64,000 nucleotides of DNA from Paracamarosporium sp. OC-R06-R3. Its lineage: Eukaryota; Ascomycota; Dothideomycetes; Pleosporales; Didymosphaeriaceae. Both the position numbers and the translations under genes were made by a program. The stretch's first letter is position 1, and the number at the start of each line of letters is the position of its first letter. The stretch is from assembly GCA_019828545.1 (NCBI GenBank), contig JACVRA010000128.1, forward strand, positions 62,001 through 126,000, in the 5' to 3' direction. The notes under the pieces were generated by a model. The model was not told the origin of the DNA. It saw nothing but the letters and a program-made list of their open reading frames with translations, and ran no database searches. This document shows positions 21,686 through 55,921 of this stretch, in pieces.

Positions 21686-22629
21686 CGCTTGTGAGTGAGG
21701 AAAGCCACGACCACAAAGTGCACTCTGCTTCAGTTAGCTAAAACGCAATTTTAACAACCTTTATTACTTACAGGGCTCTTCATATTCAAATGGTATGCTT
21801 GGACTAAGTTATGAATAGGACGGTTGTTCTTCATCCCACTCTACAACAGAAAAGTAAAGAGTTGATTGAAGCTCCAGGGTTGAAACCATTGTGTCGATCT
21901 GGGATATATATATACAGACGTACATATTATCAAACAAAAAGCCCACGGGATCAACAGTCGCGTGGTGGCAACACATTGACGCGTCATTAACGCGACACGG
22001 TGATGCACCACACAGCATTCACGCGGCACTCTTTCACAACACCCCTTCCTGTATAAACATTTGAATTTAGAGAACAACCGCTACTCTCACTTCAAGAGGC
22101 ACTTTCACTTCGCTACTCCCACGTGCTACATCCCTACCATGGTCGATTCGATATCAAATCTTCCAAACGACTACTACAAATGGACTATATATCTTGCTGA
22201 TGACACCAGCAGCTACCGATTTACTACTTACACTAACCATACTACAAGCTTTCTGTCAATGAAAAAGTTAGTGATAGACTTTTCCCCTCGAGAAATACAC
22301 ACAACACAGATTCAAGCTTCCCAGGCCGCATACAGCACATCCTCCAGAACTCATACTCACAACTACCACATACTTCCGACTGTGACTTCGTGGCACCTAC
22401 CCATCCACTTATCCGCCAAACGATGCCTCCCTCTAACGACACCGCCTCAAACGCAAGCACGACCACAAAATTTTCACCACACATGTTTCAACCACCACGT
22501 TCCCACACCAAACGCAGCTTCACCGTATAAAGTCCCTATTTAAACCCACCCATAGACCTCTTCTCCACATCCAACCAAGTTGCCCAGACCTCAACTCCCA
22601 CTTCAACGAATTCACAACAATTATTCACA
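21686..22629. other. Divergent intergenic region
   Basis: Spacer between the minus-strand gene at 20537 and the small plus-strand ORF at 22630. The stretch 22080-22620 is C/A-rich and pyrimidine-rich on the plus strand, like the 5' leader of a mould gene. A 160-codon frame there has low-complexity composition and is not called. Confidence 0.45.
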
Positions 22630-22869
22630 ATGTCGACGAACACAACACCTTCGAAGCCAAAAGCTTCTCAACCCCAAGACCAGACTAAGCCGGATCGAGC
22701 TTCCTCTATGGGTGACCTCGTGGAGCACTTCTCAGAAACGAAGGTCGATCTTGCAAATGATGCGCATGTGGATGATCTTACGAAGGCGTTTGAGCAGAAG
22801 TGGAGTCCGGAGAGTACGTTCGAGAGGGCTGGTGAGGAGAAAAAATATGATGGTGGTACGGGAAAGTAG
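22630..22869 (+). CDS. Small hypothetical protein, 79 residues
   Basis: The ATG at 22630 follows a CACA-rich leader (TTCACAATG context, good for a fungal start). The protein is hydrophilic and acidic: a Lys/Pro/Gln-rich head, then a helical stretch MGDLVEHFSETKVDL and VDDLTKAFEQKWSPE, ending GEEKKYDGGTGK. I do not recognise a family. The regular codon use and the amphipathic helices support a real gene. No signal peptide or membrane span is seen. It stands alone between the 21.7-22.6 kb spacer and the hairpin array downstream of ERG24, with which it is convergent. Confidence 0.55.
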   Translation: MSTNTTPSKPKASQPQDQTKPDRASSMGDLVEHFSETKVDLANDAHVDDLTKAFEQKWSPESTFERAGEEKKYDGGTGK

Positions 22870-23158
22870 CTTAGGCGCTGGATAGGCGGTTCAGGCGTTG
22901 GTTTTGGTGGGTATATGACGCTTTTGGTAGAGAAAGAGACATGGGTTGCTTGCCGGAGTATGTGAGTCGCTCACGACGCATCATGTATATCACGATCACG
23001 ATCCCAGCCAGAGCGCGTTGCATACGAGTACATCAATCCATTATCGGGTCTTCCCTGTTGTGTACGGTTTCTCGGTCGGGTGTGGAGGTTACCGAAGATC
23101 CAACAAACGTGTCTACGTAATTTAATGAAGTCACGTTCATAACAAAAAGATATATCAT

Positions 23159-23208
23159 GGATGCAAGTCTTCAATTCAGCTATCTTCCAAGCTAAATAGC
23201 AAGGCACC
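23159..23208. repeat. Diverged outlying copy of the hairpin repeat
   Basis: It begins GGATGCAAGTCTTC and ends AAATAGCAAGGCACCC. The outer arms GGATGC / GCACCC pair at five of six positions, and an inner AGCT...AGCT can pair. It keeps the TCTTC-left and ATAGC-right signature of the five copies at 23255-23546 but is more degenerate. A fragment matching only the right arm (GCGCGTTGCATAC) lies at ~23013-23025. Confidence 0.55.
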
Positions 23209-23254
23209 CTCCTCTCCTCCGCCACCAGCTCTACATAACATTAAAGATTATCAG

Positions 23255-23546
23255 AATGCACGTCTTTGACCGCCAGCCAGCGATAGCGTTGCATCTGTGT
23301 TGTGTATAGATGGATGTCTTTGACCGCGTTTCCAGCGGTAGCATACCATCCTAGTTGTGTTTCATGGGTGCATGTCTTCGATCGCTCAGCGATAGCATGG
23401 CACTGTACTGCCAAACCGTATTTACTAGATGCATGTCTTTGATCGCTGGGTAGCGATAGCATTGCATCGATCCGACGACCGTCCTCCTAGAATGTACACG
23501 GATGCACGTCTTTAATCAGATCCAGCTGATCCGATAGCGTTGCATA
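23255..23546. repeat. Array of five covarying hairpin repeats in the presumed ERG24 3' UTR
   Basis: Five copies of a ~40-47 nt unit start at 23255, 23309, 23366, 23428 and 23500 (start spacing 54, 57, 62 and 72). Copy 4 starts GATGCATGTCTTTGATCGCT and ends AGCGATAGCATTGCATC. Each unit folds into an outer stem (GATGCA/TGCATC), an asymmetric internal loop with conserved TCTTTG on the left and AGC on the right, an inner stem (ATCGCT/AGCGAT) and a variable apical loop. Copies differ in sequence but keep pairing: inner stem C-G in copy 2, T-A in 3 and 4; outer stem G-C in copy 2 where others are C-G; loop-closing C-G in 1 and 5, T-A in 2-4. The array begins 17 nt beyond the ERG24 stop codon. Confidence 0.85.
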
Positions 23547-23563
23547 CTCCCCTCGCCCGCGAT

Positions 23564-25145
23564 TTAGTAGACATAGGGCACGATCCGGTACGGCACCAAT
23601 TCGCAGTACCTCTCCCAGTCCTTGCCGTACTTCTTCCTGCACTTTTCTTCATCGCGACGTTCACGGTGAAGCAGAAGGACGGCAAAGTACACCATGAAGA
23701 AATATGTGACGATCATACCCCAGCCCTTGGCCTCGCCGGGGACAACATATTTCTGGTAGGTGTTCTGGAAGAAAACCGCATCCGTCGACGCAGCGTCAAC
23801 GGGGTGCGTCGCTGCGTTCCGGATGACGTATCCTGCAGCGGCGGTGGGAAGAACATATGACCACGACATGAACCAGTCGCCAAGGTAGTTGATGTGGCGC
23901 GCAGTGCCCCACCAGCCAGACACAAGGAGTTTGGAGCCGGACGCAGTTTCGATATACTTGAGGTGCTTGACGCGGGGATCATTGGGGTTGGTGCGGAACC
24001 GGTTCTTCTCGTTATTCACGGAGCGGAAGATGTAGTAGCCGACTGCTTGGACCGCGAATATAGGTGCCAGGCCACGAAGGCCAAGCTCTACGGGATAGGT
24101 AGCCAGATACCGTGCTTGCAGACTATACGTGAAAGGTACCCAGACCAAATCGCCAAAGGACAGCATCAATCCGAAGCCGTCACTGATGATGTCGATGGTG
24201 GTCAGCATGGCGGGTTCCATATAGTAGCAGTCAAAGACGTAGAAGGTCTGGGCGAATGTGACGAGAATGATGGAATCGGTGACCTTTCCAAAATTGCGGT
24301 ACTGCTGCATGATGAACGCCAGATCAAGGATCACCCAGCCGAGCATTCCGGGGCGGATCTCAGCCCAGGTTTTGATGTCGATTTCGCCAAAGATGGGGAG
24401 CGTGACACGCGGGTTAAGTTCACGACCAATGAACCAGTCGTACAGGATGTTGCCACTGTGGCCGCCAGCGGCTAGCTCACGCATGCTGGGATCCTTGGGA
24501 TGCTTGACAGAGAAGGAGCTAATGTACACATAAGTAGCCAAAGCGTAGGAGGTCAGGATGTTGGTGGTGAGGAGCCCAACGTAGTTCTCCGAGATGAAAG
24601 TCCAAACGCGGAAGTCAGCACCCTCGACAATGGTTCCAGCAGCCAGGATGACCAGGATGAAGATGCCAGAGCTCCATGCTGTGAAGTGTTAGTGATGTCA
24701 GATGTCAGGTGATCTAATGGAAGAAATGAATTACCATTGAAACGGTACTTGAGTCTTCCTCCACTCCTAAGCTCGGTGCCTTCAGGCTCTTCAGCCGGAA
24801 GGAAGGCGTACAAAGCCAGACTGAGGAAATAGTAGGCAAAGTTTCCGAGGACTGCGTTCCATGTGACCAAGCCTGAAAACCCAGGCCAGCCAGCTTCCTT
24901 CTTCAACTGTTCCCAGTCTAGAGTCGACGGATGAAGCAGTGACGGTGCAGGACATCCAGAAATGTCATTGCATAGAAAGGTGAAGGCATAGCAAAGTAAA
25001 GGCAGGAAGAAGGAAATGACGAAAGCACCAGGCCTGGGCTAGTCAGCGACCAAGCTTACAACATGTAAGTCAATACTTACGGTCCAAAGAATTCGTAGCC
25101 ATGTGGCTGCTCCGGGAGGGCCTCGACCTTTCGTTTCGGCGCCAT
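23564..25145 (-). CDS. ERG24: Sterol C-14 reductase
   Basis: ERG24 reduces the C14=C15 double bond after lanosterol demethylation in ergosterol synthesis, in the ER membrane. Exons are 25145-25081, 25033-24735 and 24678-23564 (492 residues). The start is MAPKRKVEALPEQP, and the second acceptor (CCCAG) restores FFGPPGAFVISFF. Multiple membrane spans are visible. Family landmarks are GNILYDWFIGRELNPR, IRPGMLGWVILDLAF, LLVSGWWGTARHINYLGDW and the C-terminal KKYGKDWERYCELVPYRIVP. LYDWFIGRELNP and the IRPGM block favour C-14 reductase over the ERG4 C-24(28) reductase. The tail lacks the lysine ER-return motif but ends in the usual YRI.PY.Y. The gene is divergent from the Mrl1-like gene (465 bp between starts). 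A hairpin array lies immediately 3'. Confidence 0.93.
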
Positions 25146-27675: not shown

Positions 27676-30600
27676 CTAGCCTTGGTTCTCGTCCTTGGAG
27701 GAAGTGAGAGATGGTTTAGCGGCACGCTTGCGGACTGATGGTCCAGACTCGGTAACTGTAGCATCGTTCAGCGTCTCCTTGTCTCGCTTATGTAGACGCT
27801 CCTTGGACGCAGAAAGAGTACCGTTTTCGTTCAAGTCCACAATATCCACATCGACTTCCTCAACCTGGAGCTGCTCCTCAGCTTCTTTGTTTGCGCCCGG
27901 TTCAGCGTCGTTGCCAGATTCTTGCACGGAACGGTTATCTTCATCATCCAAGTCTCCGTTCGCAATGCGCTCGAATTGTGGGTCCATCTATGGGCAGGTA
28001 AGCATGTGTTTTGTGGCGAATTCTGAATTCAAAGGGCGAGAGCATTGTCAATTCTATCACATCAAAAGTACTCACCTGACTCAGTTGAGTCACCAGCTCA
28101 GCCTTGAACAATCGCTCCGGAGTGGTCATCACGTCCTCCGTCACAGAGGTACCGCCGAGGACACGCATGTAATTCTTGTTCATAAGGCAATATATCTTGT
28201 CCGCCTTGTTGGCCATTTTCTCCTCCAAGCCACGACACATTTGCAACAATGCCGTCTCGACTGTTTTCGTGGCGGTGGGAAACATATTTGGGCTCTGCTG
28301 ATGAACATAGGTCGTCATGTGGTTCTTCATTCGAGCGAAGGATCCAGCACCGCGTTCATTTGCGCAAATGTCATACACAGTCATCATGGTGTTGGCTACG
28401 ATGGGGGAAAAGTCGCGGTTGGCATCCCGTTGTGCCTCCGTCATCCGAGTCTTCATCTGATCCTTGAGGGTTTGGAACATCTGCTCATAAGTGTAGATGG
28501 ACCCTTTCAACATGGCTAGCTTGGCAAGGCTAACTCCTTTCTGCTGTGCGTGCTCTTCGACTCCGGCATGGAAGGCGCGCAGTAGATCTCGCGTGTTCTT
28601 CGTGTAGGTCTCCAAAGCTCCAGGCAAGAGTTTCTGGAAGGTGCGTTCCCAGCAAGTTGCAAGCTTCTTAGTAATGGGGTCCAGTAGTTCAGCGTTAAAA
28701 TCACGATGACCAGTGTACACAGAATCATAAACGCCGCCTCTACGCACAATTGCCTTGTAGGCCGACCAGTACAATCCTCCCTGGTCAGTATGGAGACCCC
28801 ATGATTCGGCAATGGTGGGTGCAGACTGCACGGCTTCAATGACGAGCTCATCCATTCGTTCAAAGATATGCTCTCGAATCTCAGCTTTCATCGAACTGAG
28901 ACAGACTGCAACTGCCTGTTCCAAGCCCGTTTCCAGTTGTTTGAGCCTATTCGCTAGATAGTTCGCTTGATTGCGCTTGTCAGCGTCGGTCATCTTAAGA
29001 CTGGTGGCGTCATCAGAGACCCAAATATTGATTGTAGTGAGCAGTTGAAGCAAATTTAGGAGGAATGTGCGGCAGATTTGGACCCTTCCGTTCTCCGTTA
29101 ACTTCCTGCAATGATCTTGAAGCTGAGGGACTTCAGTTTCCTCTTGCGTTCGGAAACCAGGAACAGGTTCGTCCTTCTTCAAACGCCCGCACAACTTTTG
29201 ATAGGCACGGCTGCTCACGCAAAACACGGGAAGAGAATTGGCAACTTCATCGTAGTCGCGGATGTCCTGATCAGGATCAAAAGCCTGTTCATCTGTTTCC
29301 ATTGCGGCTTCTTGGTCCAGTTCCTTAATGCCAGCGGCAAAGTCCAGCTGAATTGCCCCCTTCGAGTACTTGTTGCGTCCGTCAATGCACACAGCCAAGA
29401 TTCGTGCCTTGGTTTCAGCAATCTTGCGTTCGACTACTCCGATTTTTGGGCTCAGCTCTTTTATCTCATCTTCAACGGCTTTCTTCTCTCGTCGCGCATT
29501 CTTTTTCGTAGCCTTCAATTCAGAAAGCTTATCGTCAACGTCTTGCATAGTCAGTGGCTCTGAGGCTTCTTCAACGCCATCCATGTCCGATTGGTTTCCG
29601 GCATCTCCAGCACCGTCATTGCCAGGCCCGAGAGATTGAACATCAGAATCATCTTCGATCTGTCGACGCTTCCGTGAATTCTGCTTCGACTTGGTCTTCT
29701 TTCGCTTCTGCGTTGCCTTGCTCTTTGGGGGAAAAACAGGCTCGTCATCCACACGGTCTTTAATATCCTCCCAGCTCTCTATTTCTTCATCGACTTCATT
29801 GAATATAGACTTGTACATGTCTGCAGACTCTTTCAAGCCTGCAATATTCTTCTTGATTGCCTCAACTTCCTTCTGGTAAACACGAATTTGAGCCTCGAAC
29901 TCATGAATTTCGTCGCCGAGATCCAAGCTGTCCGTGGCCTCAGTTATGGAAATGTCGTCTGTCTTCGAGCAAATAAATGTGACTGCGGAGTAGCTGCCAT
30001 CGTATTTAAGTTGACGTTTGAATGTATCCCCAAGAAGGTTCTTGGCCGCCTTGTCGTCGACCGCTCGTGTGATGGGGGCCACAATCCAAAGGCCACTACA
30101 CTGCTTCATGTACCGCTCCGCAACGGCGGCTCGGGCGGCATTGGAATCGTGCACACCTGGTAAATCCACGATGACAGCTCCTGTAGACAGGGCTGCAGAC
30201 TTGGTGTAAAGCCGAACAACCTTTATCAGGGGCCAATATTCCATCTGATTTTTTGTCTGTTTGCGCCGCTCCTTGTCCTTTTTCCCGGTCACTTTCTCTT
30301 TGCTATCAACGTACCTCTGTAACTCAGCATAGAATGGCTCCGGACGCGCACGATGAATGGGCTTCGTGGTTCCAAGGACGTGGAGCACCGTACTCTCTTC
30401 CATCAGCTTCTCGACCGTACATTTTCCAAGCTCTTCTTTCTGGATCTTTGGATAGACGGCGTGAAACTTGGCCCATGCAATACCAGCATCAGAGTTTGGA
30501 TCTGCAGTCTCTCGTATCATGGTTCCGCCCTCTGTAAGAAATTCCTGCATGAGAATCTTCAGGTCTTTCTCCCAGTCGGAAGGACTTATAAACTCGATTT

Positions 30601-31871
30601 CTGCACGATATTTGTGATCTGGGTCATTATCTTCGTTCCAAGATATTTCAGTTACCACAGCAGTGCATGCACGCATGCAGTTCGTTGGAACTAAGCGTTC
30701 CTCGTCAAGTAAGGCGTTGATGACGCTGCTCTTGCCAGCGCCAGTGTTGCCCACGACGCCAACAACTGTGCGATTGCGTTTGAATTGCTCCTGCAACTTG
30801 TCGATAGAGTCGATCCAGCTTCCAGCATCCGAGCTAGTAGCAACGAACTGCAAGCATATCTGCTTCAGCTTTTCGATGAGCTTCATCGAACGTGCTACGC
30901 CAGCTTCGAGGACTTGCACGTCCTGTTGGTGGATAATATCATGGATGTGTTGACCCACTAATTGAGCCGGCCCTTTAGAATAATCCATTGGGGATGGCTC
31001 ACGATCGAAAAACTCGCCTGGATTGAAGGATTTTGAAAGTGGTGTGTTGTTGGAAACAAAGCTTATGGAAGACAGAACATCGCTAGGTGGTGTAGAACTT
31101 GTTCGGTTAAGGGAGGACATTTCGAGCGGAAACTCGGTAGACGGTAGTTCTTGGTCACACAGTACCTCCCTCTGGGTTGTTGCGGTGGCTTTGGCTGCAG
31201 ATCTAGGTGTCTGTTGAGTGTTTGCTTTGTTGGCATTGGGGCGCGATGCTGGAGATGAAAGTTGAGAGGTGCGGGCAGGTCCTAGCACAGGTGCTGGGAA
31301 CAGCTTGTCCGAGAAAGAAGAGCGGTCGTCAAGAGTAGTCTAAAATGATTGATCATGAGCTTTCCACCGTCAACACCTTGTCAGATGACTATTTACCGGA
31401 CGTGCAGACTTCTCCACGGCACGTAGAGCTATGACCAGGTCGTCACATGTGCCTAGGTCTTTCATCATTGTGTCTGGCGAAGCTATTGCGCCGTCGAACC
31501 ACAAGTCGAAGTCACAACCGGGATCCGGTTGCTTGGATCTGCAAGTTTCCTTGATCTTCGCGATTGTGACTTTCTGTTACAGGTCAGTCATAGTCGCACA
31601 TAAAAAGGCAAATGGGAGCATAGCCGATGTATGCAGATTTTGCTTTTAGGGTAACGCGAAGTGCTCGGGCGTTTTTTTCGACAGTATAAGGTACCAGACT
31701 TTGGGCACATACACCATGGGCTTTGACCCAACTGAAGTCGGGGAAACTAAGCTCTGCATTTGGATCTCGGTCTGTGAGAAGGACGCCTACCATGAAACGT
31801 CGCGGGGGAAGATATTCTCCATCTGGTTGCGCTTGCACAACTTTCTGGCGAAATTCATCCCACTGAGACAT
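27676..31871 (-). CDS. SLIP-type (nuclear GTPase SLIP-GC-like) large GTPase
   Basis: Dynamin-superfamily GTPase. Exons read as 31871-31713 (least sure), 31573-31397, 31339-28076 and 27987-27676, giving 1,303 residues. GTPase motifs: G1 GVVGNTGAGKSSVIN, G3 VDLPGVHDS, G4 ICSKTDD. Between G4 and the C-terminal helical region is a charged coiled coil with a strong nuclear signal (KRKKTKSKQNSRKRR) and an acidic segment. The final exon is almost entirely acidic and polar (EEQLQVEEVDVDIVDL). The first two exons may form a ubiquitin-like fold (KVTIAKIKETCRS...FDLWFDG); this is a guess. The vertebrate relative NUGGC is nuclear. Filamentous fungi have many uncharacterised members. The alternative first-exon donors are all phase 0, so the N-terminus needs RNA evidence. 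Confidence 0.8.
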
Positions 31872-36058: not shown

Positions 36059-38641
36059 CTACCTGTTCCCTCTTCGTCCCGGCAGCGGAGGTGGCACTTT
36101 GGGGTTGCCGTAGGCGTCTGTACTAAGGGCAACCCTACAATCAGGGCAATACCATTTGGCACGACGTGCGGGAAGCTCGCCATCCTTTAGGCCTACGCAC
36201 TCCAGGTGGAACCACTCTTTTTCGCACTGGTATCCGTTAGCATCAAGAACATGCAAGTAGAGGTTAGTGCGACTCACATGGTTATCACAAAGGATCATCG
36301 ACCCGAAGCTGACGTCGTCACAGATACAGTATCTCTCCTCGTCTTGGTCGATCTCTTCCGCAGGTTCAGAATCTTCCTCAGGCTTCTTCCTCTTTTTGTT
36401 CTTATTACCCTGTGCCCGTTTCACATTCGTAACTGTTTTCTGCCCACCATCGCCATTCGTGATCTCGCCTTTGGGTGGCGCTTTCCTCCGTGTGCTCGTG
36501 CGAGTAGGAACTGGAGTAGGAGCCGCGAGCGCGGATTGACCAAAGACGCTATGGCGACGGAGTTCGCGAGTACTCTGTCCTTGTTCGTGGGGTTTGGGTT
36601 CTTCGCTCTGAGCCTTTGGGGTCGGGACGTGACCGCGAGAAGAACTGGGGCGAGAAGACCGTGGGCGGGTAGTTTGGACCGGAGTGGGAGGAGCAGCCTC
36701 AGGCGCGGGCGTAGGGACCTTTTGCTTCTTCACAAGTGGTGCAGGGACGGAAACTGGACTCGACGGCTTCTCTTTCGGTGGGGCGACTGACTCCCTTCTA
36801 GGGCGAGAAGAAGCTGCCGTCACGTTTGAAGCTGCTGCAGGTGCTGAAGGGACCGTGGAAGATAGTTGAGCTTCTGCAGAAGCTTGAACGGCAGGTGAAA
36901 GTACAGCAGGCGTGCCAGGCTGACTACTCGCTGCTGTTTGTGAGATGCCGGCACTTTTCGGTGTACCGGGTCCTGCCGGGGCCAGAGGTATCTGCATGGT
37001 GGTCGTCTTGGTGATCTCTGGATTTGGTACAGGAGTCTTCACACCAGGCGAGGGACCAGTGGGCGTAAGATTTTGTGGTGAGGACGCTTCGCCAGAAGTC
37101 GTTAAAAGATTCAACCGGGGCCGCTTTCGCTCGGGGGGCTTGCTGTCACTGTCCTGCGAGGCTATTGAGGGTTCTCTTGATACTTCTGCCAGCTCTTCGA
37201 ACGTTGGCTGCGGACTTGAATCACGCTTGCGCTTGTTCGGGGTCTTCGCAATAGCTTTCTTGCCTGCGCCACCAGTGCTAAAGCTTAGCTCTTGCATCCA
37301 ATCGGCGGCCTCCTTGATCCTTTTGGTAGCGTTTTCCAGTTCTTGTGCATCGCGTACAGCCTGCCGACGCCGACTGTCTCGATTCGACAGCCTTGTATCT
37401 CTGAAATCAAGCGATTCTATAGGAGTGACACTGTCTTCCATCTCAGTATCTCTTGGAAGTTCGATCGGGGTAGGCTCGATGTCTGCTGGTGTTGATTCAG
37501 CGGGCGGTGCAGCCGGCGCGGGTGCGGGGGCGGGTATAGGTGCGGGTATAGATGCGGGTATAGGTGCGGGTACGGGCACCGGTACTGGTGGAGTTTCCGC
37601 GGCAACCTGTGGAATAGTTGATCGTAGTGTTGGAGCGGCGGGCTCTTCATCAAGAAACTCGTCGCCTGTCTCTTCACATCGCTTCTTCTCCCTCTCGTAC
37701 GCTTCTTGTCCGCGTCCCGCGGCTTCCAGCTGACGCTTAATCATGGTCTCACTAGGAGTCCACACCGCATTCTTCTTCATCTTTTTCCTGAGCACAGCCA
37801 TCTCGTACTCGGTGAGCTTGAACCACGGCGCCCACTTGCTGCCAGGTCTAGCGTTTTCGGGTGGAGGTGAGAGTCTAGCAAGTGCGTTACTCGTAGAAAT
37901 GCCAGCGAGTGAACTGTGAACATTGGTGCCTGAACCTGGAGGCCGTACCCGCACCTTGGGAGGCTTCGGCGTCTTGTCCTTACGGTCTTTAAGCCTCTTG
38001 GGTGCTATGGCGACATCAGCGTTGTATCCCACTTCTGAATCGTCCGAATCCGAGAAGCTTGCAGAACGAATGCGTACACCAGGCAGTGGGATCCTGGACT
38101 TTTTGCGATCGCGTGGACGCGCCGTCGAGCTGCCGGCATACCGACCGTCGAGTGTCAGGCGCAGGTGCGGGGTTGCAAAGTTTCGATTCAGCGATCGCGG
38201 CGCTTGAGGTGATACAGGAGCAGGCGTAGGGTCGCGGGACGGTGGCTCTGGCTGCGCCTGAAGCTTTCTCTTGATTATGCCAATGCGGTGCTTGTGGCGC
38301 TCCGCAACTTCGTACAGGCGCGAGGCCTCTGCGTACGACGACTCCCGAGCGTATATGGCCCTGTCGAGGGAAAGAGCGATTTCCCTGCGGAGCTCGGTGG
38401 GGTCTGGGCGCTCGCGAGCGGGGATGGTGGGAAGTTTGCCATACTTGACAGTGAGGTGGTGGACGGCCTGGGTGGCATCGACGTAGGTCTGGTCGAGATC
38501 GCCGATCAAGCGGAGCGAGCGCACGAGGTCGGAGGGGAAGAATTCGGTGTAGTCGAGGAAGTCGTTGACCGTGGTTTGGGCGTCTGGGTTTGCGACGGGC
38601 GGCGGCGTCAGGTCCTCCTGCGCAGCTGCATCTTCGGCCAT
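36059..38641 (-). CDS. ING-family chromatin protein with C-terminal PHD finger
   Basis: ING proteins read histone H3K4 methylation with a PHD finger and bring acetyltransferase or deacetylase complexes. The ATG is at 38641 (MAEDAAAQEDLTPPPV). The frame is open upstream to a stop at ~38818 but has no ATG. The N-terminal ING helix is VNDFLDYTEFFPSDLVRSL...IGDLDQTY. A very long disordered Pro/Ser/Thr-rich middle includes repeated APIPA units and basic patches. The PHD finger near the C-terminus has YCICDDVSFGSMILCDN, HC, EWFHLECVGL and WYCPDC. A 51-bp intron (36227-36277) splits the finger between ligand Cys residues. Length is 843 residues, long for the family (yeast Yng2/Pho23 are ~280-330). 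The subgroup is not decided. Confidence 0.87.
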   Translation of the reverse strand: MAEDAAAQEDLTPPPVANPDAQTTVNDFLDYTEFFPSDLVRSLRLIGDLDQTYVDATQAVHHLTVKYGKLPTIPARERPDPTELRREIALSLDRAIYARESSYAEASRLYEVAERHKHRIGIIKRKLQAQPEPPSRDPTPAPVSPQAPRSLNRNFATPHLRLTLDGRYAGSSTARPRDRKKSRIPLPGVRIRSASFSDSDDSEVGYNADVAIAPKRLKDRKDKTPKPPKVRVRPPGSGTNVHSSLAGISTSNALARLSPPPENARPGSKWAPWFKLTEYEMAVLRKKMKKNAVWTPSETMIKRQLEAAGRGQEAYEREKKRCEETGDEFLDEEPAAPTLRSTIPQVAAETPPVPVPVPAPIPASIPAPIPAPAPAPAAPPAESTPADIEPTPIELPRDTEMEDSVTPIESLDFRDTRLSNRDSRRRQAVRDAQELENATKRIKEAADWMQELSFSTGGAGKKAIAKTPNKRKRDSSPQPTFEELAEVSREPSIASQDSDSKPPERKRPRLNLLTTSGEASSPQNLTPTGPSPGVKTPVPNPEITKTTTMQIPLAPAGPGTPKSAGISQTAASSQPGTPAVLSPAVQASAEAQLSSTVPSAPAAASNVTAASSRPRRESVAPPKEKPSSPVSVPAPLVKKQKVPTPAPEAAPPTPVQTTRPRSSRPSSSRGHVPTPKAQSEEPKPHEQGQSTRELRRHSVFGQSALAAPTPVPTRTSTRRKAPPKGEITNGDGGQKTVTNVKRAQGNKNKKRKKPEEDSEPAEEIDQDEERYCICDDVSFGSMILCDNHVSRTNLYLHVLDANGYQCEKEWFHLECVGLKDGELPARRAKWYCPDCRVALSTDAYGNPKVPPPLPGRRGNR
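37500..37590 (-). repeat. Coding GCGGGT/GGTATA-type repeat (Ala-Pro-Ile)
   Basis: Plus-strand units reading GCGGGTATAGGT and variants encode APIPAxIPAP-type repeats in the disordered centre of the ING protein. The reading frame is kept through all units. Confidence 0.8.
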
Positions 38642-43768: not shown

Positions 43769-44102
43769 TGCATGAATGCATGATGAACAGAATCATACTG
43801 AGCACTGGTCTTGACGCGTATAGCGTATAGTTTTAGATGAATACGATAATTCTCGGTGGTAAACGATGCGCGACTGCTCTAGCGCGCTAAGAATTGCAGT
43901 GCAAAAAAATAGAGTTTGAAAGTTGATCGATGGATCCCAGGGCTTCATCAGATGCACGTGACTGCCAAGAACGGCCTAACCGTCGCATCAACTAGCGCGC
44001 TCGCTTACCGTGCGCGGCAGTCGCGAATATTGCCCACACGCCATAATTCTTCTCTCGAACTCCAGGACAACTTCGATTTCGACACATCCGCCAACCGCCA
44101 AC
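43769..44102. promoter_or_regulatory. Promoter region of the eS7 gene
   Basis: 334 bp between the aquaporin stop and the eS7 start. A pyrimidine- and A-rich leader (TTCTTCTCTCGAACTCC) precedes the ATG, normal for a ribosomal protein gene. No TATA box is confident. Confidence 0.45.
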
Positions 44103-47614: not shown

Positions 47615-49645
47615 ATGTCGGACTTCAATACAACAGACTTCGTCGCCCAGATGAAGGGTTTTCAGGCTTCTGATGACGCCCGCCAGAAACTCTTTGCTGT
47701 AAGCCGTTCCCTTCGTGATTGAGCTGGCCCCCATCGCTAATTGCCATGCAGGATATGCTCGAAAAGTATACTGCTTTGTTAGAAGAATTCGAAATTTTGA
47801 AGAATGACTACATCTCCGAGCGGGACATGAGGCGCAACCATCAGCGGTCGGTTGACCTGATGCAGCGCGAGGTCGCCGAGACCAGACGCGAATTGGTGTG
47901 TTGTCCATTCCGGCCTTGTGCGTCCTGATTTACAGCTAACGTTTCGCAGGAAGACCATTACTTCGTACTAGCATTAATTGATGGAGATGGAGTTATCGTA
48001 TGTTGCACTGTCCAAGCTATGCGATTATCGGTTGTCACTAACGAGTCGTAGTTTCAGGATGCGTTGCTGCGCGCCGCTGGACAAAACGGCGGTTCTGAAG
48101 CTGCATCTAGGCTGCAGCATGCCATTCACGACCACATCACTTCACTATATCCCAACTCTGGAACTTGGCCAATCATGGTACAAATCTATCTAAGTCTTGA
48201 TAAGTTGGCGTTCAAGCTCGCATCTGTTGGTTTGATCGAGAAGCCAACAGATCTTCGAACATTTGCACAATCTTTCTCTCTCAATCAATCCCTATTTACT
48301 ATTGTCGATGTAGGCCATGGTAAGGAACGCGCAGACCACAAAATCAAAGGTACACACCCTGGCTCTTTCTCTAGTGACAAATGCTGATGCTATTCTAGAA
48401 ATGCTTCGAACATTCAGTGATAATCCAACGTGCCGACACATCATCTTTGGAGGGTGTCATGATGCAGGATACCTTCTCAACCTTGACCAATATAAGCACC
48501 ATGCGTCTAAAGCTGAACGTATTACCCTTCTCGAGTCGACACCTGCCTGGAGGGGTTTCGCCGAGCTGCCCAACTTCAAGCGCACTAGCTTCGATAATGT
48601 GTTCAGAAACACAGAGTTGCCAGAATATGCTTTTGCGTCGCGCTCAAATGTGCCAATCCAGCCTCCTGTTTCCGCACCAGTCCAGCCTATTGTGACGAGG
48701 ACTATGACGGATCCCACTCCACCGCCCGGCTTCGGGAATCCTCCGCCCGGCTTTCCACCCGGCTTTCCGTCCGCACCGCCCGGTTTTAGTGATAGCCCGC
48801 GTGGTACACCTCCAATTTCATCACCTGCTACAACTGTTTCCTCGCTCGCCGCGGGTAATCCGACACCCGAGCCTACTGAGTCGTCTTCTTGGGCTGTCGT
48901 CGGCAAGAACGCCGCCTCCGCTAATGAGAAGAATATTTCTATCGCACCTAAGACCAAGCTCAATAAGAAATGGGCTTATTATAATAAAGAAGAACAGCGC
49001 CTTGATGAACCTTTACCGCCGAAAGACAAAACAGCTTATGATGCTATCGAATTGCGCATGAAAAGGGTAGGCAAGAATCTTTGCAATCACTGGCATCTCA
49101 ACAAAGGAAAGTGTACGAATGGACTTAAGTGCCCTTTTCAGCATGAGCCTAAGCTCTCGAATACGGAGTCGATTGCGTTGCGTTACAAGACGAGAAGCCT
49201 TGCTTGTAAGGACCGTTATTGTCAGAATATTGATTGCTGTAAGTTACACCCCGTTTCCCCACATAATGAGTATCGACAAAGTGGGACACCCTCTTACGGT
49301 CATGCTATCGCATATCTCCACAAGATATACCATACAGAGGCAGACTCTACGAAGGCTGGCATCTCCAACTGCACAGCTCTTCGCGCAACCTGCCCCTGTG
49401 CGGTACCTTTCAGGGCAATCTACCGTTGGACCTTTATCTCATATGTCTCCCACGTTCCTTTCTTCGTCTTACTCGCTTGATATACTCGTTACTAACAACC
49501 CTCAGACCTAGGCCACCAATGCTCCTTCGAGCGCGACCAAGGCTGGTGCCCGTTCCCTGATACATGCAACCTACGACACACGCACGGCATGGACAAAACC
49601 AGAGCTTCTCGCTGGGATGAAAATGGAGAAATGGAGCAGTTGTAA
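47615..49645 (+). CDS. DUF7923-like CCCH zinc-finger protein
   Basis: Predicted RNA-binding protein. Six exons: 47615-47698, 47752-47895, 47950-47997, 48052-48349, 48399-49238 and 49506-49645 (517 residues). An ATG 18 bp upstream is also in frame. The N-terminus is a coiled coil (DMLEKYTALLEEFEILKNDY). An NYN/PIN-like core follows: VLALIDGDGVIFQDALL, TFAQSFSLNQSLFTIVDVGH, IIFGGCHDAGYLL. A linker of repeated PPGF units comes next. Zinc fingers: CNHWHLNKGKCTNGLKCPFQH, then CKDRYCQNIDC...CSFERDQGWCPFPDTCNLRH. The DGDG and GCHDAGY motifs suggest a nuclease-like fold. Activity is not established. The last intron (267 bp) is long here. Confidence 0.82.
48710..48790 (+). repeat. Coding PPGF repeat
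   Basis: Tandem CCGCCCGGCTTT-type codons encode repeated PPGF units (PPPGFGNPPPGFPPGFP) in the linker of the CCCH protein. The reading frame is kept. Confidence 0.8.
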
Positions 49646-50181: not shown

Positions 50182-53100
50182 CTAATCTACCTTCACTTCC
50201 TGCACAAACCTCTCCAACACGTCACGGAACGCCTGACTATACTCGATCGCAATCTGACTCTGGTACCAGATGAACCTCGCATTGTGATCACCGACAAGAT
50301 TGTGCGCCAATTCGTGACAGAACGTCAAAAACCAGCTGTCTAGTGCCCTCGCTCTACCCGCCGGCGTTGCATACTCTGCCGCATGCATCTGCATGAACCA
50401 CCCTAGATTGAAGAACAAAGCGCGGTTCTGGTTAAACGCGATGGTGCGACTTTGCTTGTCGAGAAAGATGCTAACAGCAGCGGGGTTAACGCCAAACAAA
50501 GATGCAAGGCAGAAGATGATCGGCAAGAAGACGTTTAATTCTTTTTGAATTTCTGACAGTGCCTCAGAATGGTCCTTTCCATAGAAGATATCGACGTGGC
50601 GGCCGGAGTAAGGGATAGAATAGGCTTTATGGAGGTTCTCCCATTGCTCGTCGTTGCAGTAGCCGCCCTTGTCGAGCTCGGTGGGTGGGTCTTGGTGATG
50701 CTTCGAGTTGATGTTCTGTTGGTTGATGGGTCGGCAGTCTTTGATAGCATTCTGGATGTTGTTCTTGGTTACTTGGTTGTTCTCACGCGTGATTTGGCCA
50801 ACATCAGCAGGAGCTGTAGGTGCGTTCTTGAAACCAAGTTTCTTGGCCCATTGATTGAAGACACTCTTCTCCGGTGGGCGCAAGGTATTGTCGTGCCCGC
50901 TGTCACTTCCACCTAAGTCTTCGTTGTCGGGGCTGCCAAAGGATCCAGGCATCCCTTTCTCCTTTGGCTTCTCAGGTGTTGCTGGTGCGGCGGGTGGAGC
51001 GGGCTTTTCGGCTTCCACAGCGCCTTGCTTGGCTTGCTCAGCGGCACGTTGCTGCTCCTCAAATTCGCGTTCCAGTTCCTGTTGCCTTGCAATCCGAGCT
51101 TCGTGTTCTTTCTTCCGCAAAATACGTTCAACATTGATACCTTTTTCTTGCAGGCGACGAAGTGGTTCTGTGAGGATACGCTCGAGGGCAATAGCGTCGT
51201 TTTGCTTCGGTTTCTTGATGAGAAGACGAACTAGCTGACTGCTAACCTCATAAACGTCGTATGTTGGGGTGATATAAAGGATTGTCCCAATGCCTCGTTT
51301 CCGACTGATGATAGCACTCCGTCGATGAGAAGTAGCTGCTCGGTCTGACAATGAGTAACGGATAGAGATATCTGACACACATTCGACCTTCATATTTGAG
51401 CTGAGCCATTTGGTATCGTGTCGTATGCTCTTAGACGACGCGTCTCGTTCATACTCGTGGAGAAAGAGCCTACTGCGCTCAAGTATATCTTTGCGCAAAC
51501 GATGAGCCGCACTCTGGTCGCGTGTTAAGTTCCCAATGCGTTGTTCTTCCTTCACCTGTTCCGATATTTTCTTCACCCCAAAACGAGCGTAGAATTCTTC
51601 GAGTGCTTCTTCTTGGGGTGCTGCAATAATATAGTCGCGGAATCTGATGAAAAAGCTGACATCATCAATGATCACAACCTCATTGGCGCTGTTCAAAGAC
51701 CATTCGCGTGATACACCTGGTTCATCAAGGTCATCTAGATTATCCTCTTGAGCGGCAGCGAGACTCTTTTTCTCGTCTTTTATGTCTCGATACCCCAACA
51801 GAATACGAGAGGCCATCAAAGTCTTTGCAAGCTCCTTGTCTTTCCAAAGACTGTCAGCTTGGACCGCCAATTTACGAAGAAGATCAAGATATCGTTCCTG
51901 TCCGATCGCGTTCAAAAATCGGACAGGGTTTTTGCATGTAAGGTAAGCCAGATCGTGACTGCTAGGCTCGTGTTTTGCCCCAGCCTTCAGAAGAAAATTT
52001 GTTGCTTCAGCTCCGTACTGGACATAGTCTAAGATACCCCGATACTCTTGATCTTGACCGACAAAGACTGTGTCCGGAGGGTCGTGGTGGTGAAGTCGCA
52101 TTTCACTCTTCCCGGACTGAGCTCTCGCACGATCTTCAAAGCCGGCAGAGGCTGGCTCAAGATAATATCTGCGAAACACAGGAACGATATGCGCCGTGGA
52201 TATGCTATTCAACAATTGTCGCCGTTGATCTAATTCTCCTATCCTACTGGCAAGATAGGTAAAAAGCATCTCCGCATCGAGTTTCGTCTTTGGTGGAGAT
52301 TTGATCAGTCGTTGAACACAATCTTGAATGTCTGGGTTATGTTGTACACCAAACTTCTCAGCATGTGGTCGTAGATCCGCTCTCAGGATAGCGTATCCTA
52401 GGCATGAAGCCCTCTCGTTCGTGTAACACTGGAATGGCCCTACTAGCGTCGGCCAAGGGGCCTGTTCTGTCGGTAAGATGGGTAGAGAAAGTGCTGCGAT
52501 CCTTTTTGTTTCGGAAGCGTAGCCATGTTTAAAGTGGTTCTGAATGAAGTAGTTCAGAGCAGTAAAATATAGCGGTTCGTTGTTCGCTTGTCCAGCCTTG
52601 TGCATTATGTTGGCAAGGACAACAGAGTCTGGCCACTGCATCAATCCAAGTCGCAACAAGAGGGCGCCTTCTCGAATGTTGTGTTTAAACTCGAAGGGAA
52701 GTTTTACTTGAACAAGTCCCATAGATAGTATCGCCTGATCTGGTGCGTACAGCTCCGAGGCCTTGAATAGTTGGCCATGCTGCACTGGGACTCCCTCTCC
52801 AGGTAAAAATGGTGTGTCTTTCAATCGATCAAGGTCTTTCCTTGGCATCTCGTCCATAACCGAAGCAAAATACCGGATAAGATCGACATGGTTCCACGAA
52901 GCTTTCTCTAACTGTAACTTGGAGTCTTGGTTCCGCATGCGATCAAACACCACCGAGAGCTCGACCGTTTTTCTCACGCCTAACGCGATAAGAAACTTCT
53001 CCTTTGAACCTGGGAAAGATTTGACCGTAGGAAGATCGTCAAAGAGTTTGACAGTAGGGAAATACGACTCTTCCGGTTTGTTCATGCCCGTCTTGGTAGG

Positions 53101-55356
53101 CATAATGGTATGAGGAGTTAGAATATTGACAACAGCCTCCTTCGAGGATCCATCAAATTGGTCCCAGCATTTTGCGGTAAGACTAAGAACTTGCGAAGCA
53201 AGCTTTTCTGAGGATTGAAAATCTTGAAGTTGGGGTGCGGATGTCATGTGTCGTAGCCAGCGTACTATTGATAGCTCTATCCAACCAAACATTTGCAGTT
53301 GCTTGGCTGGTATCGATTTTGAAAAGGCGAATGGAATGGTGTCCGGAGGTACAGGGAGGGTTGGGGAGATTCTTGCTGTATTGATGTACGTCCCCACATC
53401 ACCTAATGCGAGTATCCTCCCCGAATTTTCGTCGGGACTGGTCTCGATGTTTGCCACCGTAATCTCAAAGAGACTTCGAACGCCAGAAGCATCAATCTCC
53501 CGGCTTTCCAGCTTCGCTCCAGACCACTTAAGAAACTCCGCCAATTCTTCTTCTGTTAAAGCTCGACTTTCAAGACCTTCTCGAATATCTGCCATGGTCA
53601 ATTCGGATATGAATCCACGGCTGTGCAAGTTTAACATGAACGTATAGGCCCTCGTAGCTAGGTCTTGGGGTACCATAGGCACCTCGCCTAGAAAGCTTAG
53701 AGTCTCCGCCGGCATCCGTACTTGCTTACTTGCCATGACGCCCTTTGACGAAAGCATTTCGATAGAGCGTTCCTTAGAACAACTCCAAAAGGCCTCCTCG
53801 ATCTTCTCGCCGAGCAAGGTGGAAGGGTGCGAAGCATTGGAAGTGAACTGTTGGAATACGTAGATAGCTCGCTGAATCAGATTGTCCATAGGTTCCTTGC
53901 CGTATCGTCTTTGGATGTCCGCCATATCCGAGGCGTACAGGATGCGGCAAGCCAAGCCAGCCACGCGAAGTAACTCAATGTTCCACTGTGATATGTAACG
54001 GGCGTTTAAATCCACGTTTTCACGTTCCACTGTAGGAATGAGTGAAGGTGCAGAAACATGCGCAAGAACTCCGGTTGTCTGTGCGGTAGGGAACCCAATG
54101 AAGATTCTCCCTGTCTTCGTGGGCAGGACTTCTGAAAACAATTTTGACGCGAGGTCGGCTGTGTTTCCAGAACTTGTAGAAAGCGGAACAGTTGGATCTT
54201 GATATGGTGAAGTCAGAAGAGCGATCCGTGTTTTACGAGGTGGTGGCTTCTTCGTAGCGCGTTCGATTTCGGCTGCGAAGCTCTTCGTTACACGGGTGTC
54301 GACTTCAACAGTGCAAATTTGTAGGAAGATGACTCCTGTGGATTCTCCAGTGATATCATCAGTATCGTTTGATAGTTTGTCGGGTATCTTCGGTGCGGGC
54401 TGGGTTCTGTTTGGTTTCTGTGCAGGCGCTGAAAACTTGGAGAAAAAGCTCTTCAAGGCTGTGCCAGCATTTCGTACTTCAGTTTGAACCAACTCAGCTG
54501 CCCTTTTCGGTGGATTCTGGGCCGATGCAATGACATTGCTCCACTCTGCATTAATTTGAGAATGCTGCTGAGAAACTTGGGCAACGCGCATGGATCCTCC
54601 TTCTGTGTCTGTTCTTAGCCCTTTCGGAACGTGCAAATCCGCAGCCGGTGACGTTTTTTTATTGAAAGATGCAACTTTATGATTGTCAACGTGAAGCTCG
54701 AGAGACTGAAGACCCACAAAAGTCAGACTAGTAGCTAAGAACTGGCACAAGGTCGGCAGATTTGGGACCTTCGCTGGGTTATATGAGGGAGAGGATAGAT
54801 CCGCCTGTCGGTAGTCCAGTGAAAAAGTTGTGTTGGATGTCCGGTGTTCCTGGGGAACGCTTGCGACCTTCGTGGATAATGTATTTCCTTTCCAATAAAA
54901 AGCCATAGTCCTGTCACCAGACACTACGAAAGGTTCATCGCAGTCAGCAAACACACTATAAAACCCTACACCAAATGCACCGATTTTCGTTTCATCAGGA
55001 TTTCCATCCGCGATGCTTTTCAAGCGACTCCAGTCCGCAGCTGTGAAGGGTTGTCCATTGTTGGAAACAATGAGTCGCTTCAGGGTGTGATGCTGGATAA
55101 TGTGCTTCAATAATATGGATTTGTCGGAGCCTTGTGGTGTGGGAGTTTCGAGAGACGGGTCAGTCTCGAATTTGATAACGACAGTGCTCGCGCCGGCGTC
55201 GGAAGCATTCTGAATGAGCTCCCGTAAAGTTGTATGTTCGCTAGAATACCGGGCGAGCACCTTGTCTATCAGCGCCCTTGTGTTCACTGTGACTTCTGAG
55301 TCCTGGCCATCAGCCATTGTCTGGTTGCGCAGCCGCGCAAAGTCGACCGACGCCAT
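50182..55356 (-). CDS. Sacsin-like Hsp90-type ATPase protein (DUF3684) with C-terminal HExxH motif
   Basis: A single-exon protein of 1,724 residues from the ATG at 55356 (MASVDFARLRNQTMADG). The N-terminus is a GHKL ATPase domain as in sacsin: N-box LRELIQNASDAGA (Glu46, Asn50, Asp53), NNGQPF in the place of the usual DNG, and IGAFGVGFYSVF (126-137). The long middle is DUF3684-like, without clear motif. A Glu/Gln/Arg coiled coil (EHEARIARQQELEREFEEQ) and an Ala/Pro linker precede the last ~200 residues. There FCHELAHNLVGDHNARF carries HExxH plus a third His, a zinc-peptidase-like site, at ~1681. Sacsin-type proteins act as chaperones. The role of the C-terminal motif is not known to me. Confidence 0.86.
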   Translation of the reverse strand: MASVDFARLRNQTMADGQDSEVTVNTRALIDKVLARYSSEHTTLRELIQNASDAGASTVVIKFETDPSLETPTPQGSDKSILLKHIIQHHTLKRLIVSNNGQPFTAADWSRLKSIADGNPDETKIGAFGVGFYSVFADCDEPFVVSGDRTMAFYWKGNTLSTKVASVPQEHRTSNTTFSLDYRQADLSSPSYNPAKVPNLPTLCQFLATSLTFVGLQSLELHVDNHKVASFNKKTSPAADLHVPKGLRTDTEGGSMRVAQVSQQHSQINAEWSNVIASAQNPPKRAAELVQTEVRNAGTALKSFFSKFSAPAQKPNRTQPAPKIPDKLSNDTDDITGESTGVIFLQICTVEVDTRVTKSFAAEIERATKKPPPRKTRIALLTSPYQDPTVPLSTSSGNTADLASKLFSEVLPTKTGRIFIGFPTAQTTGVLAHVSAPSLIPTVERENVDLNARYISQWNIELLRVAGLACRILYASDMADIQRRYGKEPMDNLIQRAIYVFQQFTSNASHPSTLLGEKIEEAFWSCSKERSIEMLSSKGVMASKQVRMPAETLSFLGEVPMVPQDLATRAYTFMLNLHSRGFISELTMADIREGLESRALTEEELAEFLKWSGAKLESREIDASGVRSLFEITVANIETSPDENSGRILALGDVGTYINTARISPTLPVPPDTIPFAFSKSIPAKQLQMFGWIELSIVRWLRHMTSAPQLQDFQSSEKLASQVLSLTAKCWDQFDGSSKEAVVNILTPHTIMPTKTGMNKPEESYFPTVKLFDDLPTVKSFPGSKEKFLIALGVRKTVELSVVFDRMRNQDSKLQLEKASWNHVDLIRYFASVMDEMPRKDLDRLKDTPFLPGEGVPVQHGQLFKASELYAPDQAILSMGLVQVKLPFEFKHNIREGALLLRLGLMQWPDSVVLANIMHKAGQANNEPLYFTALNYFIQNHFKHGYASETKRIAALSLPILPTEQAPWPTLVGPFQCYTNERASCLGYAILRADLRPHAEKFGVQHNPDIQDCVQRLIKSPPKTKLDAEMLFTYLASRIGELDQRRQLLNSISTAHIVPVFRRYYLEPASAGFEDRARAQSGKSEMRLHHHDPPDTVFVGQDQEYRGILDYVQYGAEATNFLLKAGAKHEPSSHDLAYLTCKNPVRFLNAIGQERYLDLLRKLAVQADSLWKDKELAKTLMASRILLGYRDIKDEKKSLAAAQEDNLDDLDEPGVSREWSLNSANEVVIIDDVSFFIRFRDYIIAAPQEEALEEFYARFGVKKISEQVKEEQRIGNLTRDQSAAHRLRKDILERSRLFLHEYERDASSKSIRHDTKWLSSNMKVECVSDISIRYSLSDRAATSHRRSAIISRKRGIGTILYITPTYDVYEVSSQLVRLLIKKPKQNDAIALERILTEPLRRLQEKGINVERILRKKEHEARIARQQELEREFEEQQRAAEQAKQGAVEAEKPAPPAAPATPEKPKEKGMPGSFGSPDNEDLGGSDSGHDNTLRPPEKSVFNQWAKKLGFKNAPTAPADVGQITRENNQVTKNNIQNAIKDCRPINQQNINSKHHQDPPTELDKGGYCNDEQWENLHKAYSIPYSGRHVDIFYGKDHSEALSEIQKELNVFLPIIFCLASLFGVNPAAVSIFLDKQSRTIAFNQNRALFFNLGWFMQMHAAEYATPAGRARALDSWFLTFCHELAHNLVGDHNARFIWYQSQIAIEYSQAFRDVLERFVQEVKVD

Positions 55357-55921
55357 TCTGAGTGAGTGCTCTGTGTATTGGAAAATTATTGAAGATATCA
55401 AGCGCCCGGCCCCATTTATAAAATCACAGGAACACCAGTTCTGCTTCAGGTGACAAACGAACGGGCACACCAAATGTCGAGAGAGCAAACGTGAAGAAGA
55501 TTTCTGCGTTATAAGACAGCTGACGTCGAGTTGAAGCCTAGGTGGCGAAGCAGGGGAAAGCGACAGAATGCAGGAGAACCGATGCTAAGCCGATGTTGCA
55601 AACCCTTATCTAGGACCTCGCTATGCAAACGACAAAATGAAAGCTAAGAAGAAAGCTTGAAGTGTTGAGTGTTGCGGCCAGCAAAGTGATTGCTGAGGGT
55701 TCTTTGTACCGCGGGCGCGACGTGTGGCGTTTTGCCTTAGAACAATCCAAGTTAGCGCGCCAAGAGATCCCCATGGCTGTCTCTCGTGCACTGGATCCTC
55801 ACGCTGCGGCCTTTCACTGTCGAAAATTCGACAAATATGCCATTACTTGCGCGCCCAACCCCCAGAATACGATAGAACCCAGGTGCTCTGGCCTTAGGGG
55901 TAATTTTTTCTCCATGTGGCA
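55357..55921. promoter_or_regulatory. Shared divergent promoter of the sacsin-like gene and TRS120
   Basis: 565 bp between the start codons of two large genes on opposite strands. No clear TATA box. An AT-rich stretch lies near 55380-55440. Confidence 0.45.

Follow-up and report, generated by a model that had tools for sequence, protein, structure and literature searches.

After a gap of 17 nt, the stop codon of ERG24 is followed by an array of six hairpins, which share an asymmetric core and differ in large parts of their helices. The array is confirmed, with one copy more than a preceding reading of the letters alone (the sequence-only reading) had given. On balance, we interpret it as a set of at least six hairpins in the ERG24 3' UTR, which probably serves as a multivalent protein-binding site and would be under selection for its fold. 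The window analysed here, meaning the whole stretch of 64,000 nucleotides to which all positions refer, covers positions 62001-126000 of one contig (C24) in a 43.1-Mb assembly of 337 contigs. The features of the locus are compiled in Table 1.

Table 1. Features of the ERG24 locus and of the hairpin array, in window coordinates; bulges and pairs are given in mRNA sense.
Feature	Positions	Strand	Remarks
ERG24 (C-14 sterol reductase), intron-containing	23564..25145	minus	PF01222
ERG24 putative start codon	25145-25143	minus	assigned by eye
ERG24 stop codon TAA	23566-23564	minus	
Gap between ERG24 stop and hairpin c5	23547..23563	minus	17 nt
Whole array, six copies c0-c5	23158-23546	minus	
Hairpin c5 (copy 5 of the sequence-only reading; first in the mRNA)	23499..23546	minus	8-bp inner stem unlike the other copies in sequence; bulge UAA
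Hairpin c4	23426..23470	minus	bulge CAA; fold z -4.22 on the minus strand
Hairpin c3	23364..23406	minus	bulge CGA; one outer pair changed from A-U to G-C
Hairpin c2	23307..23352	minus	bulge CAA; outer C-G changed to G-C, inner U-A to C-G
Hairpin c1	23252..23298	minus	bulge CAA; inner U.G (A.C in plus-strand reading)
Hairpin c0, sixth and most divergent copy	23158-23210	minus	bulge UGA; 8-bp inner stem of its own; 6-bp outer stem
UA-/U-rich stretch directly past c0	23143..23157	minus	possible poly(A)-site context, assigned by eye

The product of ERG24 is a target of morpholine fungicides. The gene was recognized by two matches to PF01222, one of 452 bits in the last exon (ORF 23564-24688, minus) and one of 41 bits in an upstream exon (ORF 24553-25038). 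The closest protein to the last exon is a Delta(14)-sterol reductase of Paraphaeosphaeria minitans (91% identity), and further named matches come from Periconia, Lindgomyces, Melanomma and others, which we take to be pleosporalean fungi; as judged from sequence, the fungus itself is near Paraphaeosphaeria. Searches for relatives of the locus with the last-exon protein yielded four stretches fitting the pattern and no relatives among viral contigs, and 26 stretches among genome contigs, where the sole relative was a chlamydial MAG, set aside as comparison locus at 34% identity. Beyond the fungus' own genome, these viral and genome contig searches thus provided no fungal DNA related to the ERG24 locus. 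The last exon also contains a 22-nt inverted repeat (23686-23707 and 23745-23766) of 77% complementarity. Because ERG24 lies on the minus strand, this is also the strand relevant for the hairpins, and the molecule to be considered is the minus-strand RNA rather than the plus-strand form described by the sequence-only reading. The distance of 17 nt between the stop codon and c5, which that reading had given correctly, places and orients the array for the 3' UTR of ERG24.

All five units noticed before are present in their places, and c0 had been missed. A covariance model built from the five copies (R1), which was run over all 64 kb with filters off, assigned 45.8-64 bits to its training copies, 19.1 bits to c0, which had no part in its building, and at most 18.9 bits to any place elsewhere in the window. 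This score of c0 is barely above the chance-like value of 18.9 bits and would not settle the sixth copy by itself. We regard c0 as a true copy because it shares the strand of c1, from which it is separated by 41 nt, and combines a 6-bp outer stem, the GCUA and RAAGAC elements and an 8-bp inner stem. Moreover, a descriptor (GCTA, then T-[CT]-[AG]-AAGAC within 40 nt, with at least three pairs beyond A-T) matched six places on both strands of the 64 kb, which are the six copies; structure, model and descriptor were all derived from the array copies themselves and are biased in their favour. Two further places in the window were dropped, namely 30889-30922 (+) with 18.9 bits, which is antisense to a dynamin-like ORF and has no inner stem, and 43949-43991 (-) with 16.1 and 15.3 bits, which shows an outer stem without core. 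The spacers measure 28, 19, 11, 8, and 41 nt along the array and follow no fixed period, and the array is absent from the output of Tandem Repeats Finder, which rules out a fixed-period tandem repeat. A coding repeat was likewise ruled out, as the longest stop-to-stop frame within the hairpins comprises 81 aa and no single-frame repeat is found, and so were bacterial-type signals (one promoter-like match vs. 1.1 expected, one terminator-like match vs. 0.3).

Other features of the window include a tandem repeat of 12 and 24 nt (GCGGGTATAGGT type) at 37518-37584 within overlapping ORFs, an ORF of 1131 aa with a dynamin-type GTPase domain and DUF7605 (27944-31339, minus), an ORF of 1800 aa with DUF3684 and a sacsin domain (50182-55584, minus), and, about 25 kb from the array, an ORF for a putative RNA-binding protein with DUF7923 and a CCCH zinc finger (48314-49480, plus).

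Read in mRNA sense, each unit begins with an outer stem of about five pairs, followed by one bulged nucleotide, the pairs A-U, Y-R, and G-C, and the core. In the core, C-U on the 5' side faces YRA-AG-A on the 3' side, resulting in two Watson-Crick pairs, a 3-nt bulge (variants in Table 1), and a bulged A; the consensus 5'-GCUA / U-YRA-AGAC is common to all six copies. The inner stem consists of A-U plus 4-7 further pairs and ends in an apical loop of 3-8 nt without common sequence. The alignment contains 15 invariant columns, 10 of which represent GCUA and U..AAGAC of the core. The outer stem is only partly variable, since its pairs at columns 6-50 and 7-49 never vary. The plus-strand face TCTTTG, which had been called fixed, is present in only three of the five copies, while copy 3 contains TCTTCG and copy 5 TCTTTA. 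In c0, the invariant GCUA and RAAGAC are retained, and U.U replaces the two junction pairs A-U and Y-R.

The canonical core pairs are predicted with probabilities of 0.89-0.99 in c1-c5 (0.93-0.96 in c5, with an MFE of -15.6), and c0 favours another local fold, with values of 0.03, 0.21, 0.20, and 0.85. Taken together, the 464-nt region shows no unusual stability (z -1.04 on the minus and -1.03 on the plus strand), and c3 and c5 are rearranged in its predicted fold; with z at only about -1 on either strand, whole-region stability was dropped as proof of function. The hairpins share a mean identity of 66% (gapped), compared with 26% and 33% (ungapped) for their 8-nt flanks, which indicates that the conserved part ends with the hairpin. 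The spacers preceding c2 and c1 both contain ACACAAC, and at least this pair of copies therefore arose by duplication.

Coordinated stem changes around a constant core, as proposed by the sequence-only reading, are seen in the alignments of five as well as of six copies. In the five-copy alignment (A1), the outer pair at columns 8-45 is C-G in four copies and G-C in copy 2, the outer pair at columns 5-48 is A-U in four and G-C in copy 3, and the loop-closing pair at columns 11-43 is U-A in three and C-G in two, all as described. The inner pair at columns 16-34 is C-G in copy 2 and U-A in three copies, again as described, plus U-G in copy 1, where the plus strand shows an A.C mismatch that the earlier description had omitted. 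With six copies and 17 pairs, 86 of 90 pair cells are standard, and two-sided changes occur in 9 of the 17 pairs, three of which rest on the comparison of c0 with c5 only. The covariation score of the six copies is 0.318, compared with 0.160 after shuffling, and none of 500 shuffles reached the observed value in any of the five measures applied; a shift of the partner by 1-3 columns reduces the paired cells from 96% to 24-39%. Support is weaker with the five copies alone: covariation score and paired cells are reached by 6 of 500 shuffles and the number of two-sided pairs by 19 of 500, and for further pair types no excess is seen, 338 of 500 shuffles doing as well. All these values compare paralogous copies within one genome, and the shuffle tests ignore the relatedness of the copies. 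Among the 720 possible permutations of whole arms, the true one comes first by a narrow lead (95.6% vs. 94.4%, mean 85.7%), because c1, c3, and c4 are nearly interchangeable.

The most compelling single argument comes from the inner stems of c5 and c0, which are unlike each other and unlike those of c1-c4, and yet pair over 8 bp each (the fixed A-U plus seven further bp). Comparable inner pairing appeared in 0.2% of 20000 mononucleotide shuffles and in 1.4% (c5) or 0.8% (c0) of 3000 dinucleotide shuffles. The pairing of the inner stem of c4 was matched by 0.1% of shuffles, and those of c1, c2, and c3 are singly within the reach of chance (1.4-5.6% of mononucleotide and 7-8% of dinucleotide shuffles).

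It had been argued that simple duplication would not keep the pairing through such changes, which is too strong, as a single template-switch event can yield two-sided changes, according to a report on this process (PMC8794818). The main rival explanation, to which we assign a minor though appreciable likelihood, accordingly consists of an imperfect palindrome that underwent several duplications and had one arm repeatedly re-copied from the other by template switching during replication, without any selection on the RNA. According to the same report, stems that carry compensatory changes of several bases arise and persist through template switching (PMC8794818). Events of this type would also exchange stems as a whole, as seen in c5 and c0, and the duplication that is presupposed is evident, at least for c2 and c1, from the ACACAAC spacers. 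What it leaves unexplained is the presence of an invariant asymmetric core amid changing stems and the likeness of the hairpins next to flanks which are not alike. Since two-sided changes can be made by template switching (PMC8794818), the case for selection rests on these two features, the unchanging asymmetric core and the hairpins outlasting their flanks.

The hairpins themselves weakly favour the ERG24 sense. Their fold z-scores are lower on the minus than on the plus strand in all six copies (-3.90 for c2 on the minus strand), while the raw fold energy is lower on the minus strand in four copies, equal in c4, and higher in c3 (-13.0 plus vs. -11.6 minus). The minus sense shows five G.U cells vs. 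one A.C, and the paired cells decrease to 82 of 90 on the plus strand. This preference is weak enough to lend something to the idea, which we consider improbable, that a separate non-coding RNA or a plus-strand transcript bears the hairpins, which would then lie next to ERG24 by coincidence. On the plus strand, an ORF of 79 aa (22630-22869) does point towards the array and ends about 290 nt before c0, but neither homologues nor Pfam families were found for it in our searches, the folds are better on the minus strand, and c5 starts 17 nt past the ERG24 stop codon. The 79-aa ORF is preceded by a C-rich stretch with a GC skew down to -0.65 at 22400-22599.

As far as searched, the element is confined to the ERG24 locus, although short copies with different stems may have escaped detection. 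BLAST of the 411 array bases against the genome returned the self-match only, with the same reservation for short, diverged copies, and pattern counts in the genome were compared with those of reversed patterns as controls. The pattern TGCNNNGCTAN{6,36}AAGACNTGCA, which fixes three outer-stem letters, GCTA, AAGAC, and four outer-stem letters, has six matches in 43 Mb, compared with none for the reversed control; five of them are in the array, including c0 and excluding c2 with its different outer stem, and the sixth is located in an ORF on contig C47. Three other patterns remain at control level, with 206 vs. 196 (only the initial places listed), 12 vs. 11 (two array copies included), and 11 vs. 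9 matches (one included), whereas two patterns exceed their controls with 17 vs. 7 and 12 vs. 5 matches, each including two array copies. All non-array places of the patterns with 6, 17, 12 (vs. 11), and 11 matches and 6 of the 10 from the 12-vs.-5 pattern were scored with the model, the background being the 64-kb window plus the scored loci. No full copy was found among these scored places. The best one, the place on C47 (L063, 20.0 bits), was dropped because its outer stem of 7 bp is accompanied by only half the core, the inner stem is absent, and the place lies in a 156-aa ORF. The best place of the other patterns (L003 on C35), with 14.7 bits for R1 and 15.8 for a model R2, has no outer stem and lies in a 170-aa ORF; a further weak model match (L042, 14.6 and 13.6 bits) shows the outer stem alone. 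Both were dropped, as was a single match of 10.0 bits (L032); the remaining pattern loci gave none listed with default filters.

A similar picture was obtained for 16 loci of PF01222 paralogues, squalene epoxidase, sterol methyltransferase, ERG2, and fatty-acid hydroxylase, which reached at most 14.6 bits. These loci extend about 1.5 kb past the domain match, are grouped by Pfam family rather than by single ERG genes, and include an ERG2 match located 306 bases from a contig end; ERG11, ERG5, ERG7, ERG9, ERG26, ERG27, and HMG-CoA reductase lie outside the set. A pathway-wide sterol-response element becomes less likely by this result, which is silent on a sterol-response element specific for ERG24.

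The same searches bear on a function at the DNA level, either as a cluster of palindromic protein-binding sites or as a mobile palindromic repeat family, which we regard as a very improbable alternative. The units are imperfect palindromes in DNA as well, and the two patterns above their controls would fit such a family. The array is located behind ERG24 and not before it, however, and its pairing is better on one strand if G.U is counted; BLAST found only the self-match, the other patterns are at control level, and the scored places contain no good match. Both BLAST and the genome patterns give no sign of a dispersed mobile repeat, within their limited reach for short copies with different stems.

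An invariant asymmetric internal loop flanked by variable helices is also a feature of small aptamers, and the host gene is metabolic, so the core might be conceived as a ligand-binding aptamer for a sterol or a cofactor, repeated six times in a riboswitch-like manner. We consider this hardly likely, as six copies would be unusual and no expression platform was recognised, short of a systematic search; moreover, experiments on two 3'-UTR structures of metabolic genes in fungi provided evidence that argues against riboswitches (PMC8216456). Still less can be said for hairpin precursors of small RNAs: six consecutive stem-loops are present, but their stems of 5-8 bp are interrupted by bulges and fall short of the length usual for Dicer substrates, and it is the core that stays constant instead of a 20-22-nt product.

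For the multivalent protein-binding site which we prefer, the following mechanism may be envisaged. The array would be transcribed as part of the ERG24 mRNA, and selection would act on the folded RNA. The UA-/U-rich stretch past c0 would suit a poly(A) site, in which case the 3' UTR would consist largely of the array. The constant internal core, the largely variable helices, and the free apical loops suggest that the core is read and the helices present it; the asymmetric core would thus be the recognition surface, and the inner helices and part of the outer ones could vary provided that pairing holds. With six irregularly spaced sites, protein binding of a cooperative or multivalent kind is a better fit than a single switch, and the multiple copies may lend avidity. 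A trans-acting RNA-binding protein would dock on the array and set the stability, translation, or localisation of the ERG24 mRNA. As a more tentative proposal, the undescribed motif GCUA / U-YR-AAGAC might represent the site of a fungal RNA-binding protein, and its six-fold array might give the ERG24 mRNA a dedicated post-transcriptional control.

Multi-hairpin arrays controlling a single metabolic mRNA are known from animals, namely the IREs of the transferrin receptor mRNA, and we know of none for fungal sterol genes. If this tentative proposal holds, filamentous fungi would possess an IRE-like system for sterol synthesis. Control of ERG24 through its mRNA would supplement the known transcription factors by a further level of sterol regulation. 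The six copies at one locus also align naturally with each other, so that the required part of the hairpin, the core, can be deduced from them. In Candida albicans, ERG24 is among the genes raised by fluconazole, and the accessible part of this azole-response paper contains no passage on 3' UTRs (PMC11586853).

In agreement with the earlier statement that no element of this kind has been described, no Rfam family fits: Rfam 15 gave no match at the gathering score in the 64-kb window. Sub-threshold matches in 22870-23570 comprise snoZ17 on c4 (20.1 bits vs. 44, E 0.58, with the model mostly deleted), whose match to c4 is taken as chance, and DUF805b outside the hairpins (10.4 bits vs. 35.6). 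In the mostly open-access literature searched for ERG24, UTR structures of fungi, and the control of sterol mRNAs, no such element appears in titles and abstract openings.

Among known RNA motifs, K-turns of the L7Ae/15.5K/L30 type resemble the hairpins in having two helices separated by a one-sided bulge of three nucleotides, which is followed there by tandem sheared G.A and A.G pairs. In the array, the A-G after the bulge stands opposite C-U and forms Watson-Crick instead of sheared G.A pairs in all six copies (columns 13-43 and 14-42), and the hairpins are therefore not assigned to the K-turns. Smaug/Vts1 hairpins and She2 zip codes are further examples of mRNA hairpins read by proteins. 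Vts1 recognizes CNGG in the apical loop, and CUGG was seen by eye in the apical part of c1, c2, and c5 and is absent from c0, c3, and c4; the CGA bulge of She2 sites is present in c3 only.

Two kinds of 3'-UTR elements in metabolic mRNAs are also comparable. Conserved structures in the 3' UTRs of fungal metabolic genes, each restricted to a subphylum or smaller taxon, were reported by Gao, Jones, and Rivas in 2021 (PMC8216456), whose study does not name ERG24 in its accessible part. Like the GLY1 and MET13 structures described there, the array is a putative 3'-UTR RNA structure of a fungal metabolic gene; it differs from the four-stem junction of GLY1 and the short hairpin of MET13 by forming six copies behind ERG24 (PMC8216456). 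The transferrin receptor 1 mRNA carries five IREs in its 3' UTR, to which IRP binds and protects against endonucleolytic decay, and an IRE is characterised by CAGUGH in its apical loop together with a stem that is bulged by an unpaired C or by UGC/C (PMC4112806). CAGUGH occurs in none of the six predicted apical loops, and Rfam gives no match, so the hairpins are not IREs themselves: their apical loops vary and their constant part is the internal asymmetric core. Nevertheless, a single metabolic mRNA has, or in the case of ERG24 probably has, several 3'-UTR hairpins that each keep a constant part for recognition, and by this analogy the IRE array of the transferrin receptor may be regarded as the closest functional parallel.
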